Made by a program: the position numbers and the translations under genes. Of a stretch of 64,000 bases of DNA, positions 58,904 to 64,000 are shown piece after piece. The stretch is from Rubripirellula amarantea (GTDB lineage Bacteria > Planctomycetota > Planctomycetia > Pirellulales > Pirellulaceae). Position 1 is the first letter of the stretch. Every line of letters begins with the position of its first letter. The notes below the pieces were generated by a model. That model saw only the letters and a list, made by a program, of their open reading frames with translations, was not told the origin of the DNA and searched no databases. The DNA is taken from assembly GCF_007859865.1 (NCBI RefSeq), contig NZ_SJPI01000003.1, positions 372,001 through 436,000 on the forward strand, read 5' to 3'.

Positions 58904-61027
58904 ATGAACGGCACGAACAAAATTGCGAGCAACGGAAAGCGTATCGTTTTTTTGGTCGCTGCAATCCTCGTAGTTGGGATCACGATTCCGCTGATTGTTC
59001 GCGCTCCGGCGGTCAACCTAGCTGAAGGATTTTTTTTCGCTGTCCACCACGACCCTGATTTTGTTGTGATGTGCAACTCGATCGAATCACGGCCAGGTGT
59101 TACCGAGGCGTTAGTGATCGACCTCGAACGAGAAATTGCGACTCGTCCTATCGTGACGCAACACTTTCGCGCTCTGCATAGTGTCAACGAAAACGGATCT
59201 CTCAATTGCGTCGAGTTCCCTTCAAAATCGCGCAATGATCTTGAAGAAAATAACGCAAGGTGGTTGCTTATTGATCCGATATCGGGGGCGACGATTGATT
59301 CTCGCAACATGCGCCTTCCTTCGTCGGGCTTGCTCAACAGTTGCGGATCGTTGGTAGTGTATCGTGAAAACGGAAAGGTACATTTGGCTGATTTGAATTC
59401 GCCGACATCAGTCGTTGTCGATGAACAACTAATGATGCCTTCTGACCAAGTAAGCTGGATACCAGGGACGCACAATGTTCACACTATCCGTTGGCTCCCT
59501 TCTTCGAATAAGGACACCGCTTCGCTAGGTGTATCTGAACATCGATTGTTCGCGATAAGAGACATGAAATCGCCGGAACTGATTGCCAGTTGGCGGTCGG
59601 CCCCCATTGCGGAACCAAACTTCGGAGCACCGACCTCTGAAATCGCATACGTGAACTCAGCGATGGATAAGGTTGAAATTCGCTCGGGAATGACCGGCGA
59701 AGTAGTGCAAGAGTATCCCATTCCCAGCACGATCGACTTCGCCAGCTTTACCACTCCCGCGTTGCAACAAGGTTTGCTGTACACGGCCAGCGACTCTATC
59801 CTCCGTTCAAACATCTTCGATTACCGAAGCCAGGTGTGGCTACCAACCGATATAACTAAACTGCAGTTAGGAGATTGGCTGCCTTCAGCGAATCTTCGTT
59901 TCTGGCAGAGCAACGATGAAGCGCAGCGGAAGTATGTGTACGAAGGAGCGAGCGAAGAACCTCGCTGTTCGTTCGTTGCATCCGGGCGTCATGATTGGAC
60001 GGGACTTTTTATTGACGCTGACCACGTCGCCGTATCGACTCGCTGCTTCGGTGGCTCGTTAGAAGTCTTTGATTCGCACACTGGTAAACGAGTAAAGACC
60101 TTCCGACCATTTCAGTGGGTCGCATGGTCTTTAATTGCTGTCTTAGTTGGCAGTACCTGGCTGGGTTGGGCGTGGTGCACCAGTCCAGTTTTCCAGACGA
60201 CGCCACCCGGATTGACCTCCCTTGTGATGTTAGGGACTCCTTTATTGCTGTTTGCAGCAAGAGCACTGATCGTGGGGGACACCAGTAACACGGGCCGGTT
60301 GCCATACGCGTACTCGCAAGGAATAGCGACAGCCATGATCTCGCTAAGTGCAGTCTGGTTCGCTTTCGGACGCTCGGCCTGGACTCGTCGAGTGGCTCCG
60401 TTGGGCGTGATTGTCACGGTTGCAATTGGATTGATCTCTGTTTGCTTTCGCAACCAACCTGCCACTGCGTGGCAAGCAATTGCCAGCGTTACCTTCCCGG
60501 TCATCACCGCCCTCGCTTGGCTATTGACGCTAAGACTGTTTGGTTTTCGCATTACCAGGCGAAATCCATGCGACCTATCTACCAAGGGCGAGATTTCGAC
60601 GCATCGCCGATGGCCCATTCGTGACTTGTTCCTGGTTACCGCAGTCGCATCAAGTCTCTTCGCGGTGATTCGGCCGATCTTATCCGATGCCGAAGAATTG
60701 ACTCGCATCGCTTATCTGATTTGGCCGGTCGCCTACGTCAATTTGACATTGGCTTTGACGCTATGGCTTACCCTTGGAAAGTCAAAACGACTGTTCCTGG
60801 CAGTACTCATGACCATTGCCGTTTTGGGCATCGGCTTGGCCGCCGAACCACTCGCCGCGTTTATCCGAGTTGGCTCGTGGGATCAATGGTTAAGATGGCC
60901 CACGGTATCACGTGTCGTTGCGACTTACGGTGTCGCTTTAGCAATCAGCCTGATTCCGTTTCGCCTGCATGGTTACGTTCTAGCTCGGCCATTAAGGCCG
61001 GAGATCGCCAAACCAGTTACCACTTAA
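58904..61027 (+). CDS. Large membrane protein with periplasmic beta domain
   Basis: The 707-residue protein has one N-terminal transmembrane helix (about 13-33) and a periplasmic region (about 35-400) of short repeated strands that looks propeller-like, with segments such as W-I-P-G-T-H-N-V and S-W-R-S. About nine further transmembrane helices fill about 405-700. No enzymatic motif is seen. It starts 5 bp after the DUF1080 stop and ends overlapping the 3' end of the kinase-tubulin gene by 11 bp. The function is unknown. Confidence 0.7.
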   Translation: MNGTNKIASNGKRIVFLVAAILVVGITIPLIVRAPAVNLAEGFFFAVHHDPDFVVMCNSIESRPGVTEALVIDLEREIATRPIVTQHFRALHSVNENGSLNCVEFPSKSRNDLEENNARWLLIDPISGATIDSRNMRLPSSGLLNSCGSLVVYRENGKVHLADLNSPTSVVVDEQLMMPSDQVSWIPGTHNVHTIRWLPSSNKDTASLGVSEHRLFAIRDMKSPELIASWRSAPIAEPNFGAPTSEIAYVNSAMDKVEIRSGMTGEVVQEYPIPSTIDFASFTTPALQQGLLYTASDSILRSNIFDYRSQVWLPTDITKLQLGDWLPSANLRFWQSNDEAQRKYVYEGASEEPRCSFVASGRHDWTGLFIDADHVAVSTRCFGGSLEVFDSHTGKRVKTFRPFQWVAWSLIAVLVGSTWLGWAWCTSPVFQTTPPGLTSLVMLGTPLLLFAARALIVGDTSNTGRLPYAYSQGIATAMISLSAVWFAFGRSAWTRRVAPLGVIVTVAIGLISVCFRNQPATAWQAIASVTFPVITALAWLLTLRLFGFRITRRNPCDLSTKGEISTHRRWPIRDLFLVTAVASSLFAVIRPILSDAEELTRIAYLIWPVAYVNLTLALTLWLTLGKSKRLFLAVLMTIAVLGIGLAAEPLAAFIRVGSWDQWLRWPTVSRVVATYGVALAISLIPFRLHGYVLARPLRPEIAKPVTT

Positions 61028-64000
61028 CGTCGGATCGACTGGCAAGCCTTTCGGTCACTTGCTCATTACCGCCGCCGAGCACGGTAAGCCGCGCGATGAT
61101 ACTTTTGAGCTCGATACCTTGAGCTTCGTGGATCAACTTGGCGTCGGAACCGGGAATTACCGCAACCGTAACCGCACCTTCGTAGATTGATCGCAGTTGT
61201 GGTTCTAGCTGTCCCCGTTCGACTTCGTTGCTGACAATTAGAATCAAACGTTGCTTGCCACCCAACGCGAGCAGACCGGGACGAACGAGTTCTACAGCCT
61301 CCTCAATCGAAACGGGTGTATCCGCAAGACGATCCCCCACATCGGGAAGGTATTGCGTGGCTTCGATGGATCGTCCTGTAGGTTCATTCCGTTGGATAAC
61401 GCAATGAGTTAGGTCAGGTTGCGAAACCGAACTGCCGATCGTACGATCCGCCCGAATGAAATGAGCTTCGCCGTGTTGTCGCACCAATGGGATGATGAGA
61501 TCAATGGCGGCGGGTGTAATTTCATCAATCAAGAACCGAGCATCCACATTCGCAGCATGGTCATTGAGTGGACGAACAAGCAAGTTATTGACAGTAGTAT
61601 CATGCAACTTCTTAAGAACTGCTGGATGCTGCTCTTGCATTTCGTCCGGCATTTCTTCCCACGGATTCTGGGCTGGCGCTTCGGATTTAGTTTCCATAAT
61701 CGCGATGGCTAAAATTGCACCGAACCGCTCAAGTCTCTCTTCAAGGTGCTTGATGCTTGCGTCGAGATGATGAAGCTGTTCTTTAGCGATGATGCACGAG
61801 GCAATGTCGACAAACCGCTGCTGAACTGCTTGCGGCCCTACTTCATCGATGGCGACTGAATGATCGTCCAACTGTGGGAACGCGAGGCACACTTCGTCCG
61901 TTAGCGTAGCCAGCTTCTCGCGAATCAAACGCATGGTTTCGATAGAAGTCGCCAAGTCGATACGACGATTCGAAAGCCCAACCGAAATTTCACGATACAA
62001 GCTATTGATCCATCCAGCACACAACCAGTCCATTTCGCCACGATGGGACGACAACTCTAGCCACCAAGCGATCGCCTTCCCATCACTTGGAAAGTCTTCG
62101 CCCGGATGTTCGTGCATGTATTGTCCCTTGACCTGCGCGAGATAGGTCGAGAAACGAACTTGTTTTTCGGCGAAGTGGTCGAGAATTTGTTTCTTCACTG
62201 AATCGCTGTACAACCCGATCCGTCGCATCAACCGGTGAACCGATTCGTTGGCGGACTTGGATGCTTGAGCGGGATTTCCAAGCCAAGAAATCATCAGATC
62301 TCGAACCAATGCGGGTCCAAGTAGTTTTTCTTCCAAACGGTGGCAATCGCCCAGTGGGATAACACCAACGCTTCGGAATGCTGCGGCATGAACCTCTTGC
62401 TTTTCTTCGCTACTTGATTTGCGTGCTTCGGCTAGCAATTCGCCACACCCGTTGGCATTGGCCCACAAGTATTCCGCGATTGTATCGGACGGGCGTACTC
62501 CGTAACGACTGTCCTGGGATCCAGCGATCAAATACACGTTTCGTAATGGAGTGCGTGCCGCCGGGACACTTGGCCAGCCGGCTCCCTCGTCACCGGGATA
62601 GCCATTGCCCGCTTGCAGGAAGTGACCGATCTCTTTGATCGCTGCCTGAGTGTCGTGTAGCGCAATCGGGTGATGAGGATCCACGCGAAGCGGCGCTGTT
62701 GCGAGCAACGAAAGAATCTTGGTATCGGCTAGTCCGGCTTGATCCAAAAAATGTCTTAGCAGGTGAGCCACATCGATGAACATGCCGCTCGCGGTACCAC
62801 CAGCGATCGACCCGACGATGTATACCAAAGGCATTCGACCTTCACTCGACTCGACCAACTGCTCAACTGACTTGGATAGTTTTTCTGCGACGACCGGCCC
62901 ATGATCGACAAGGGCCAAACGCCCAAGCGGCCGCATTCCCTCGGTCGAACCGCTGCGAGGCACGTTGTAGATCCAACGTCTTGAGATGGTTTTTAATCGG
63001 TCGGTTCCGCTATCTCGATACTCGTTGGCGCTTTTTAGCGGCGTGTAGATTAGATTGCATTTCGATACTCGTTCGGACACCTCCGCGAGTCTCATCGAAT
63101 GAATCGTCGCCATGTCCGTGTCGATGAGTGCACTGTGCAGCTCGATAGGGCTGACCGCCCGCAAGTCCGAGACGCGACGACGTAGTTCCCGCACGCACTC
63201 GGCACCCGTTCCGCCGATGGCGACGACGAGTACATTCTGCGTCACGTGCGACGACGAAGCTCCCGAATGAAGCCCGAGCTGCGGAAGGTCATCCACGGGA
63301 GCCTGAGCTGCGACTTCTAATGCGTTCTCGAGCGAGCTTTGTCCGCCGACGGATACTCGATTGACATTCCAGCCGTCTCGCAGCGCTTCCACGAATTCTC
63401 TGCAACTAGCAAACCGTCGGCTAGGATCTTTTTCCAAAGCGCGAGCTGCCACAACACGATCGGCCGGCGGCAGTGGTTCCAAGTTCGGCGCACTATGAAC
63501 GTGCTGAGTCGCCAATTGAGCAATCGTGCGTCCGCTAAAGGGACGTGTACCGGTCAGCAACTCCTGGTACATGACCGCTAATGAGTACTGGTCGCTATGC
63601 AGGCTGGGTTTCCCGTCGAAAACTTCTGGCGGGGCATAAATGGGAGTCAATCCACCGACGACGCTGCAATCTACGTCGCGAAGGTCTTTCAACAACCCGA
63701 AGTCGGCAACCTTCACATGCCCACCAATCATCAGCAGATTGCCAGGCTTTACGTCGAGGTGCTGAAGCTGATACGACTTGTGAAGGTAGTCAAGTGCATC
63801 GGCCGCGTCTTGCAGATGCGACAGTAGAGTCACGCGAGGAATACCGCACGAACCATTATCGCGATAGCTCTTGAATACGTCTTCAAGCGAACCGTCGGCG
63901 AGCTCGGTAACGATCACCAATTGCTGATCAACAATTTCAAATCGCTCGAGTGTCAACAAGAACGGGTGGCGAACGCCTTTGATTCGTTCGAGCGATCGCA
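61017..64000 (-). CDS. Ser/Thr protein kinase fused to a tubulin-like domain (5' end outside window)
   Basis: The frame is open through the right edge, so the N-lobe of the kinase is missing. The visible kinase part (about 195 residues) has H-L-D-V-K-P-G-N-L-L (the catalytic loop with Leu in place of Arg in HRD), V-A-D-F-G-L (DFG) and P-P-E-V-F. After a linker the tubulin-like domain begins V-L-V-V-A-I-G-G-T-G-A-E, with the nucleotide-binding loop G-S-I-A-G-G-T-A-S-G-M-F-I-D. About 750 residues of tubulin-like and helical sequence follow to the C-terminus. Tubulin-like proteins of this kind in bacteria have been proposed to remodel membranes. The kinase may control its polymerisation; that is inference. 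Confidence 0.85.
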   Translation of the reverse strand, partial: RSLERIKGVRHPFLLTLERFEIVDQQLVIVTELADGSLEDVFKSYRDNGSCGIPRVTLLSHLQDAADALDYLHKSYQLQHLDVKPGNLLMIGGHVKVADFGLLKDLRDVDCSVVGGLTPIYAPPEVFDGKPSLHSDQYSLAVMYQELLTGTRPFSGRTIAQLATQHVHSAPNLEPLPPADRVVAARALEKDPSRRFASCREFVEALRDGWNVNRVSVGGQSSLENALEVAAQAPVDDLPQLGLHSGASSSHVTQNVLVVAIGGTGAECVRELRRRVSDLRAVSPIELHSALIDTDMATIHSMRLAEVSERVSKCNLIYTPLKSANEYRDSGTDRLKTISRRWIYNVPRSGSTEGMRPLGRLALVDHGPVVAEKLSKSVEQLVESSEGRMPLVYIVGSIAGGTASGMFIDVAHLLRHFLDQAGLADTKILSLLATAPLRVDPHHPIALHDTQAAIKEIGHFLQAGNGYPGDEGAGWPSVPAARTPLRNVYLIAGSQDSRYGVRPSDTIAEYLWANANGCGELLAEARKSSSEEKQEVHAAAFRSVGVIPLGDCHRLEEKLLGPALVRDLMISWLGNPAQASKSANESVHRLMRRIGLYSDSVKKQILDHFAEKQVRFSTYLAQVKGQYMHEHPGEDFPSDGKAIAWWLELSSHRGEMDWLCAGWINSLYREISVGLSNRRIDLATSIETMRLIREKLATLTDEVCLAFPQLDDHSVAIDEVGPQAVQQRFVDIASCIIAKEQLHHLDASIKHLEERLERFGAILAIAIMETKSEAPAQNPWEEMPDEMQEQHPAVLKKLHDTTVNNLLVRPLNDHAANVDARFLIDEITPAAIDLIIPLVRQHGEAHFIRADRTIGSSVSQPDLTHCVIQRNEPTGRSIEATQYLPDVGDRLADTPVSIEEAVELVRPGLLALGGKQRLILIVSNEVERGQLEPQLRSIYEGAVTVAVIPGSDAKLIHEAQGIELKSIIARLTVLGGGNEQVTERLASRSDVKW

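Follow-up and report, generated by a model that had tools for sequence, protein, structure and literature searches.

A kinase-tubulin fusion protein of Rubripirellula amarantea and its conserved AAA ATPase and FHA-EAL neighbours

Fusions of a Ser/Thr kinase to an FtsZ-like domain have been on record since 2010, when four planctomycete FtsZl1 proteins with an extra N-terminal kinase were described (Makarova & Koonin, PMC2875224; this and the other papers are cited here from extracts), but we found no description of a surrounding system. Here we analyze such a kinase-tubulin gene in Rubripirellula amarantea, which lies at the end of a stretch of 64,000 nucleotides (the window, G000:C3:372001-436000 in whole-genome coordinates). 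We argue, at a probability of about one half, that its product forms the centre of a signalling cassette conserved in planctomycetes, which also includes an AAA ATPase and an FHA-EAL protein and acts by the mechanism proposed below. Computed in this study are the domain composition, the apparent integrity of the kinase residues, the recurrence of the partners and the predicted fold.

Figure species in the extracts of PMC2875224 include Rhodopirellula baltica and Blastopirellula marina; strain DSM 3645 of the latter is represented by locus L144 in our named-genome set. The kinase-bearing FtsZl1/Tubulin_2 branch and the protein studied here share the order of an N-terminal kinase, an FtsZ-like domain and a long helical region. 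In FtsZl1 the T6-H7 part and the C-terminal FtsZ-type domain were not confidently identified, undetected divergence being one explanation offered (PMC2875224, extracts); our model, in contrast, suggests that both tubulin halves are present and split by a helical insertion. A reviewer in the same paper pointed to a c-di-GMP phosphodiesterase as neighbour in one case, that of Pirellula staleyi; in its main text, supplements aside, 'FHA' does not occur and the one instance of 'AAA' concerns a different context. The fusion is also covered in PMC9871819, among the associated domains that are exclusive to cytoplasmic kinases the tubulin-like one is the most frequent (PMC11032199), FtsZl1 is listed in Gemmata massiliana (PMC4672568), and the extract of PMC6952346 holds nothing further on the fusion. 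Among the papers listed in searches of the open literature, supplements and subscription journals aside, none was seen to deal with the AAA partner or with the FHA-EAL connection. Summarizing, the kinase-FtsZl1 fusion is already known, whereas the partner cassette, the interrupted fold and the conserved tail were not found in print.

Conserved partners of the kinase-tubulin gene

In the window the gene is seen as an open frame on the minus strand (61017-63998) that runs off the window end; according to the open-frame list and the whole-genome coordinates, its in-window part covers 61017-64000 (residues 76-1068 plus the stop codon). The complete gene is located at G000:C3:433017-436223, with its 5' end beyond the window, and encodes 1068 amino acids counted from a TTG codon. 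ATG codon 14, which aligns with the start codon of several relatives, is the likelier start. An earlier reading of the DNA from its letters alone (the sequence-only reading) had noted that the upstream neighbours fell outside the window. With the 5' end and the neighbours fetched, an AAA ATPase gene is found directly upstream on the same strand (C3:436248-437573), and an FHA-EAL gene divergent from it (L002:11934-13055), both outside the window.

We compared 40 hand-picked relatives spanning families, together with the own locus, using 12-20 kb around each. BLAST recovers the AAA gene in 33/41 loci (one of them a fragment) and an FHA-EAL relative in 38/41; clustering of the neighbours yields 32 and 36, respectively, against 13 for the next commonest family. 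Of 80 named-genome loci, the 55 with at least 7 kb upstream were counted: the AAA gene is present in 46, the FHA-EAL gene in 48 and both in 41.

Similar tendencies are observed in a survey of 296 genomes of the order. At E 1e-30 a match is found in 166 genomes, but many of the weaker ones are ordinary kinases by score and coordinates; with the cut-off for a fusion-type kinase at E 1e-78 or better (next-best match 7e-48), 109 genomes are positive and 187 negative, a count that is based on the kinase match and includes one genome with the kinase alone (G123, see below). The AAA orthologue (E 1e-190 or better, a modest gap given that the weakest counted match is 2e-194 and the next 2e-187) occurs in 105/296 genomes: in 104 of the 109 with the kinase and in 1 of the 187 without it (G004), leaving 186 with neither. 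The FHA-EAL orthologue (E 1e-60) occurs in 108/296, comprising 103/109 with the kinase and 5/187 without, and 182 genomes have neither. A fusion-type kinase without the AAA orthologue is seen in five genomes (G056, where the AAA gene is a fragment, G060, G123, G139 and G250). The AAA gene is also kept at a distance from the fusion: they lie on contigs C14 (fusion) and C154 (AAA) in G003, and on C2 and C1 in G209.

In a sample of the phylum, PF13809 matches 18/292 genomes (15 above the cut-off), and nine of these loci were fetched. Three from another family of the class (L173-L175) hold the complete cassette, and in L173 and L175 the genes for a GGDEF protein (motif intact), FHA-EAL, AAA and the fusion are successive on one strand. 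In five others (L172, L176, L177, L178 and L179, the start of L176 being cut) the Tubulin_2 protein aligns to the fusion profile over its tubulin part only, and no AAA or FHA-EAL relative was found within the stretches fetched; at L180, which had been chosen for PF13809, the profile finds nothing. The fusion kinase of one locus (L050, genome G009) groups with those of another family of the class (96/91 support), which suggests, on the tree, horizontal transfer of this gene.

The AAA protein of the own locus reaches no Pfam cut-off, and 27 members of its family likewise fall in no specific Pfam family; against PDB chains, the matches are located around the Walker A region (60 of 209 listed). 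The own genome also contains a paralogue (G000:C1:2486875-2488137, E 4e-169) with no kinase adjoining, as judged by eye from six surrounding frames, and weaker matches resembling this paralogue are present in many genomes of the order, including genomes without the fusion. Among the FHA-EAL proteins, Pfam recognizes FHA in 33/33 and EAL in 31/33. Six FHA residues (G, R, S, H, N, G), which we take to be phospho-binding, are identical in 33/33, and the eight EAL positions that we presume to be catalytic are all kept in 19/33, including the own-locus protein; in the named loci, the DDFG, AEGxE and QG motifs are kept in 48/65, the other 17 including fragments. Judged by these residues, the constant feature is a phosphothreonine reader, with c-di-GMP domains nearby that are not always catalytic.

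Three genomes present natural splits of the cassette. In G004 (L183:4646-8616) a kinase-less tubulin half of 839 amino acids, with the C-terminal tail described below, adjoins the AAA gene, and no FHA-EAL orthologue is found at E 1e-60. G123 (L182:8094-9230) encodes the kinase alone (378 amino acids); its FHA-EAL orthologue lies at a separate place, and it has neither Tubulin_2 nor the AAA orthologue. In these two genomes, one case each, the AAA protein thus accompanies the tubulin half and the FHA reader accompanies the kinase half, which would fit the proposed mechanism. In G250 (L181:8129-11482) the fusion reads HLN for HLD, the glycine loop is altered and neither the AAA nor the FHA-EAL orthologue is present; its kinase is a candidate natural pseudokinase.

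Domains and predicted fold of the fusion protein

The protein had been read from sequence as a kinase with a non-RD catalytic loop joined to a tubulin-like domain with GGTASG, and both halves are borne out: Pfam Pkinase matches at 5e-22 (79 bits, cut-off 31.7) and Tubulin_2 (PF13809) at 6.9e-20 (72 bits, cut-off 27). Since both matches are far above their cut-offs, the fusion is not due to chance. All features given below are on the minus strand.

The kinase domain (about residues 31-289 by Pfam and the AlphaFold2 model) is represented in the window by residues 76-289 (63357-64000), the start of its N-lobe lying outside. As in PknB-type kinases, the glycine loop, the Lys, the catalytic Asp and DFG are all present (Hanks-type features), and in a full-length AlphaFold2 model (48 alignment rows; mean pLDDT 83.8, pTM 0.59) the kinase part aligns with PknB 5u94 at Z 27.3 over 248 residues. 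Unlike PknB-type kinases it is fused to a tubulin fold and reads HLD for HRD, so that it is not RD-type (a subclass feature). The catalytic loop LQHLDVKPGNL occupies residues 153-163 (63735-63767), and the HLD within it is invariant across the hand-picked locus set (41/41 fusion proteins); HLD counts from the named-genome set were left unused, given that one search pattern there contained HLD and would bias them. At E 1e-10 a total of 63 kinase matches are found in the genome; of the 62 besides the fusion, 48 read HRD, six have another triplet (one of them HLD) and eight fall outside the search pattern.

A linker (residues 290-327, 63243-63356), partly of low confidence in the model (pLDDT <50 in stretches), connects the kinase to the tubulin-type GTPase domain (residues 328-623, 62355-63242), which was delimited by PF13809, the AlphaFold2 model and the matches to CetZ, FtsZ and tubulin. 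The canonical Tubulin family (PF00091) scores below its cut-off (0.058; 14.1 bits against 33). The T4 glycine loop reads AGGTASG (residues 474-480, 62784-62804; GGTASG is 475-480, 62784-62801). In the 89-row alignment of relatives, the textbook GGTG[ST]G is found in 32/89, variants include GGTASG, GGVGSG and GGTGSA, and the first two glycines are kept in 89/89; the T2 loop reads DTD in 60/89 and DSD in 11/89.

Because the fold search with the full-length model was filled by kinase matches, the tubulin part (residues 318-1068) was modelled alone with 89 rows, giving a pLDDT of 88.9 and a pTM of 0.81. The best 50 Foldseek matches listed are all FtsZ, CetZ, TubZ or tubulin-entry chains (best E 2.7e-5), and VIA-align superposes CetZ 3zid_A at Z 22.6 over 293 residues (rmsd 4.3), so that the tubulin-like character read from the letters is supported by the predicted structure. 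A stretch of helices of about 300 amino acids follows the GTPase domain (residues 627-928, model residues 310-611, 61440-62345) and is succeeded by an alpha/beta domain (residues 973-1058, 61050-61307). The best 50 alignments listed by VIA-align span model residue 10-12 to 729 or beyond. As CetZ is aligned over its positions 1-340 with 293 residues, the C-terminal half is included, beyond the helices at 310-611. The tubulin fold thus looks whole in the model, with the helices as an apparent insertion of about 300 amino acids and the alpha/beta domain as its apparent second half, judged from alignment ranges rather than residue pairs. Identity in the structural alignments to CetZ, FtsZ and tubulin is about 9-15%, and it is the predicted fold that the protein shares with these PF00091 members; the score below the PF00091 cut-off, the helical insertion, the fused kinase and the relaxed T4 loop set it apart. 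A profile of the tubulin part run against PDB chains matched the helical part and none of the GTPase part (60 of 154 matches listed), so this search provides no sequence-level link to FtsZ.

The last ten residues (RLASRSDVKW, residues 1059-1068, 61020-61049) form a conserved tail, reminiscent of the C-terminal docking peptide of FtsZ. In the 89-row alignment, the most frequent residue at a position accounts on average for 0.46 of the rows in the GTPase domain, 0.25 in the helices, 0.35 in the C-terminal domain and 0.67 in the tail, which ranks 34 among 742 ten-residue windows. The 33 windows above it all lie at model residues 93-126 (RRWIYNVPR and TEGMRPLGRLA) and 152-168 (the T4 loop); as all of them precede it, the tail is the best-conserved stretch of the roughly 580 residues after the T4 region. 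The pattern RLxTRxDVxW is found in 81/89 relatives against 11/17,800 shuffled sequences, and the motif in 40/41 proteins of the hand-picked set and 64/75 complete named relatives. The proteins of L173-L175, of L181 and of L183 carry it too; six other Tubulin_2-related proteins without a kinase match all lack it. The segment holding RRWIYNVPR and TEGMRPLGRLA (residues 410-443, 62895-62996), located before the T4 loop, outscores the T4 loop itself.

Proposed mechanism and alternatives

The cassette would consist of (i) a cytoplasmic Ser/Thr kinase with a flexible linker and a complete but interrupted tubulin fold, (ii) the AAA ATPase and (iii) the FHA-EAL protein, in which a putative reader of phosphothreonine is joined to a c-di-GMP phosphodiesterase domain. 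In the mechanism that we propose, the tubulin part would self-assemble with GTP and thereby gather the kinase domains, which, once clustered, would phosphorylate threonines on the assembly or on partners. The FHA domain would then dock on these phosphothreonines and place or gate the EAL domain, changing c-di-GMP, and the AAA ATPase would dismantle the assembly, perhaps by gripping the conserved tail. A more specific version is put forward tentatively: a tubulin-type filament carrying its own kinase along its length might serve as a switchable c-di-GMP platform, on which GTP-driven assembly activates the kinase, the FHA domain recruits the c-di-GMP enzyme and the AAA protein severs or unloads the filament through the tail. 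If true, this would be a cytoskeletal signalling machine in FtsZ-less bacteria, of which we found no description.

A number of observations weigh against the cassette and its mechanism. Every step, from GTP binding and polymerisation through the targets of phosphorylation and the docking to disassembly and the cellular output, is inferred, and the relaxed T4 loop might mean that GTP use is weak or lost in some members. The EAL catalytic residues are degenerate in 14/33 proteins, and in 12 of these 14 loci a neighbour of family F3 is found. Of four F3 proteins scanned, three show REC-GGDEF-CBS and one shows only CBS; among 14 F3 proteins, a single one has an intact GGDEF motif. Enzymatic turnover of c-di-GMP is therefore not universal. 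The sub-classes with intact EAL and with degenerate EAL (the latter mostly with F3) are grouped in the kinase tree (4 changes, where shuffles average 12.2), though not necessarily as single clades. Furthermore, the partners do not always go together: six genomes have the kinase without FHA-EAL (G136, G139, G188, G224, G239 and G250), five have FHA-EAL without the fusion-type kinase, none of them with Tubulin_2 (G051, G107, G111, G116 and G270), and five named loci (L074, L075, L076, L083 and L087) have the AAA gene with no FHA-EAL gene nearby. The co-occurrence counts are uncorrected for relatedness, with thresholds set after the scores had been seen, and Fisher values computed from them serve for description only. 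Finally, the G250 fusion keeps its tail in a genome without the AAA orthologue, so binding of the tail by the AAA protein is only a guess.

The alternative that survives best, possible but doubtful, is a cytoskeleton for membrane remodelling or cell shape, in which the tubulin part forms filaments at membranes under regulation by the kinase, as proposed for FtsZl1 in 2010 (PMC2875224, extracts). The complete tubulin-like fold and the long helical insertion of the model would suit such a role. Planctomycete membranes are also known to be elaborate. The 2010 case, however, drew on vWA, GTPase, OmpA and membrane-protein neighbours, and the first three, like the FNIII domain, were not recognized by Pfam among seven neighbour genes of the own locus (GAP1-type GTPases included in the search; neighbours in the relatives were clustered and scanned in part), unlike in the vWA-FtsZl1 operon. 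The neighbours that recur instead carry FHA, EAL and AAA domains and point to phospho-signalling and c-di-GMP.

It is unlikely, in our estimation, that the tubulin half has neither GTP hydrolysis nor polymerisation and serves the kinase as a nucleotide-sensing or purely structural dimerisation platform. The T4 variants (canonical in no more than 32/89) and the PF00091 score would agree with an inert domain, but the invariant pair of T4 glycines, the prevalence of DTD or DSD in T2 and the apparent preservation of the whole fold argue for a working one.

Far less probable is a biological conflict (defence) system, a planctomycete analogue of the GTPase-centred systems of Firmicutes and Actinobacteria in which tubulin homologues have been classified (GAP1-N2; PMC7159879, extracts). 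Those tubulin homologues are likewise fused to coiled-coil or helical C-terminal parts, the AAA protein matches the bpMoxR (17 bits, cut-off 27) and anti-phage IetA models weakly, and the kinase matches the defence models mad6 and PD-T4-6. This candidate was rejected: apart from the weak ones to AAA, the PADLOC/NCBIfam matches only cover the generic kinase domain, none of the GAP1 GTPase, vWA and FNIII partners of the GAP1-N2 systems was recognized among the seven own-locus neighbours, and the partner set is stable across distant families.

The remaining alternative concerns FtsZ. The host genome has one PF13809 match, the kinase-tubulin protein itself, and 0 matches to PF00091, in a search that was positive in 13/14 control genomes. 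In the order PF00091 is found in 1/296 genomes and in 0/220 of good quality; the single match (G237:C15:6047-6367, L187) is a frame of 149 amino acids from a genome of 87% completeness and might stem from contamination. The sequence-only reading had argued from the lack of FtsZ in many planctomycetes, and the absence of PF00091 from the genome agrees with it, but this absence is not distinctive, most FtsZ-less relatives having no fusion. That the fusion protein replaces FtsZ in division, which a tubulin-type fold in a genome without PF00091 might suggest, is most improbable and was rejected on distribution across the order, given that 187/296 genomes have no fusion-type kinase, 295/296 have no PF00091 match and three congeners (93-99% complete) give no match to the fusion at E 1e-30, so that it cannot be an order-wide replacement.

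Other neighbouring genes and significance

At its 3' end the kinase-tubulin gene is overlapped by 11 bases by a convergent gene of 707 amino acids (58904-61027), which has no Pfam or NCBIfam match and for which BLAST finds no relative at any of the 40 other loci. Beyond the FHA-EAL gene (L002:13278-16069) lie a gene whose product matches TPR weakly and one for polysaccharide export (Poly_export/SLBB). The latter family recurs in 4/41 loci, and a link to c-di-GMP-controlled exopolysaccharide is possible.

Overall, the inference on shape and FtsZ drawn from the window is weakened, and what merits further work is the cassette together with the interrupted tubulin fold. The predicted interrupted fold bears on the doubt raised in 2010 over the polymer-forming C-terminal half of FtsZl1 and makes that question directly testable. 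The near-constant partners define a testable cassette that would connect a tubulin fold to both Ser/Thr phosphorylation and c-di-GMP in FtsZ-less bacteria.

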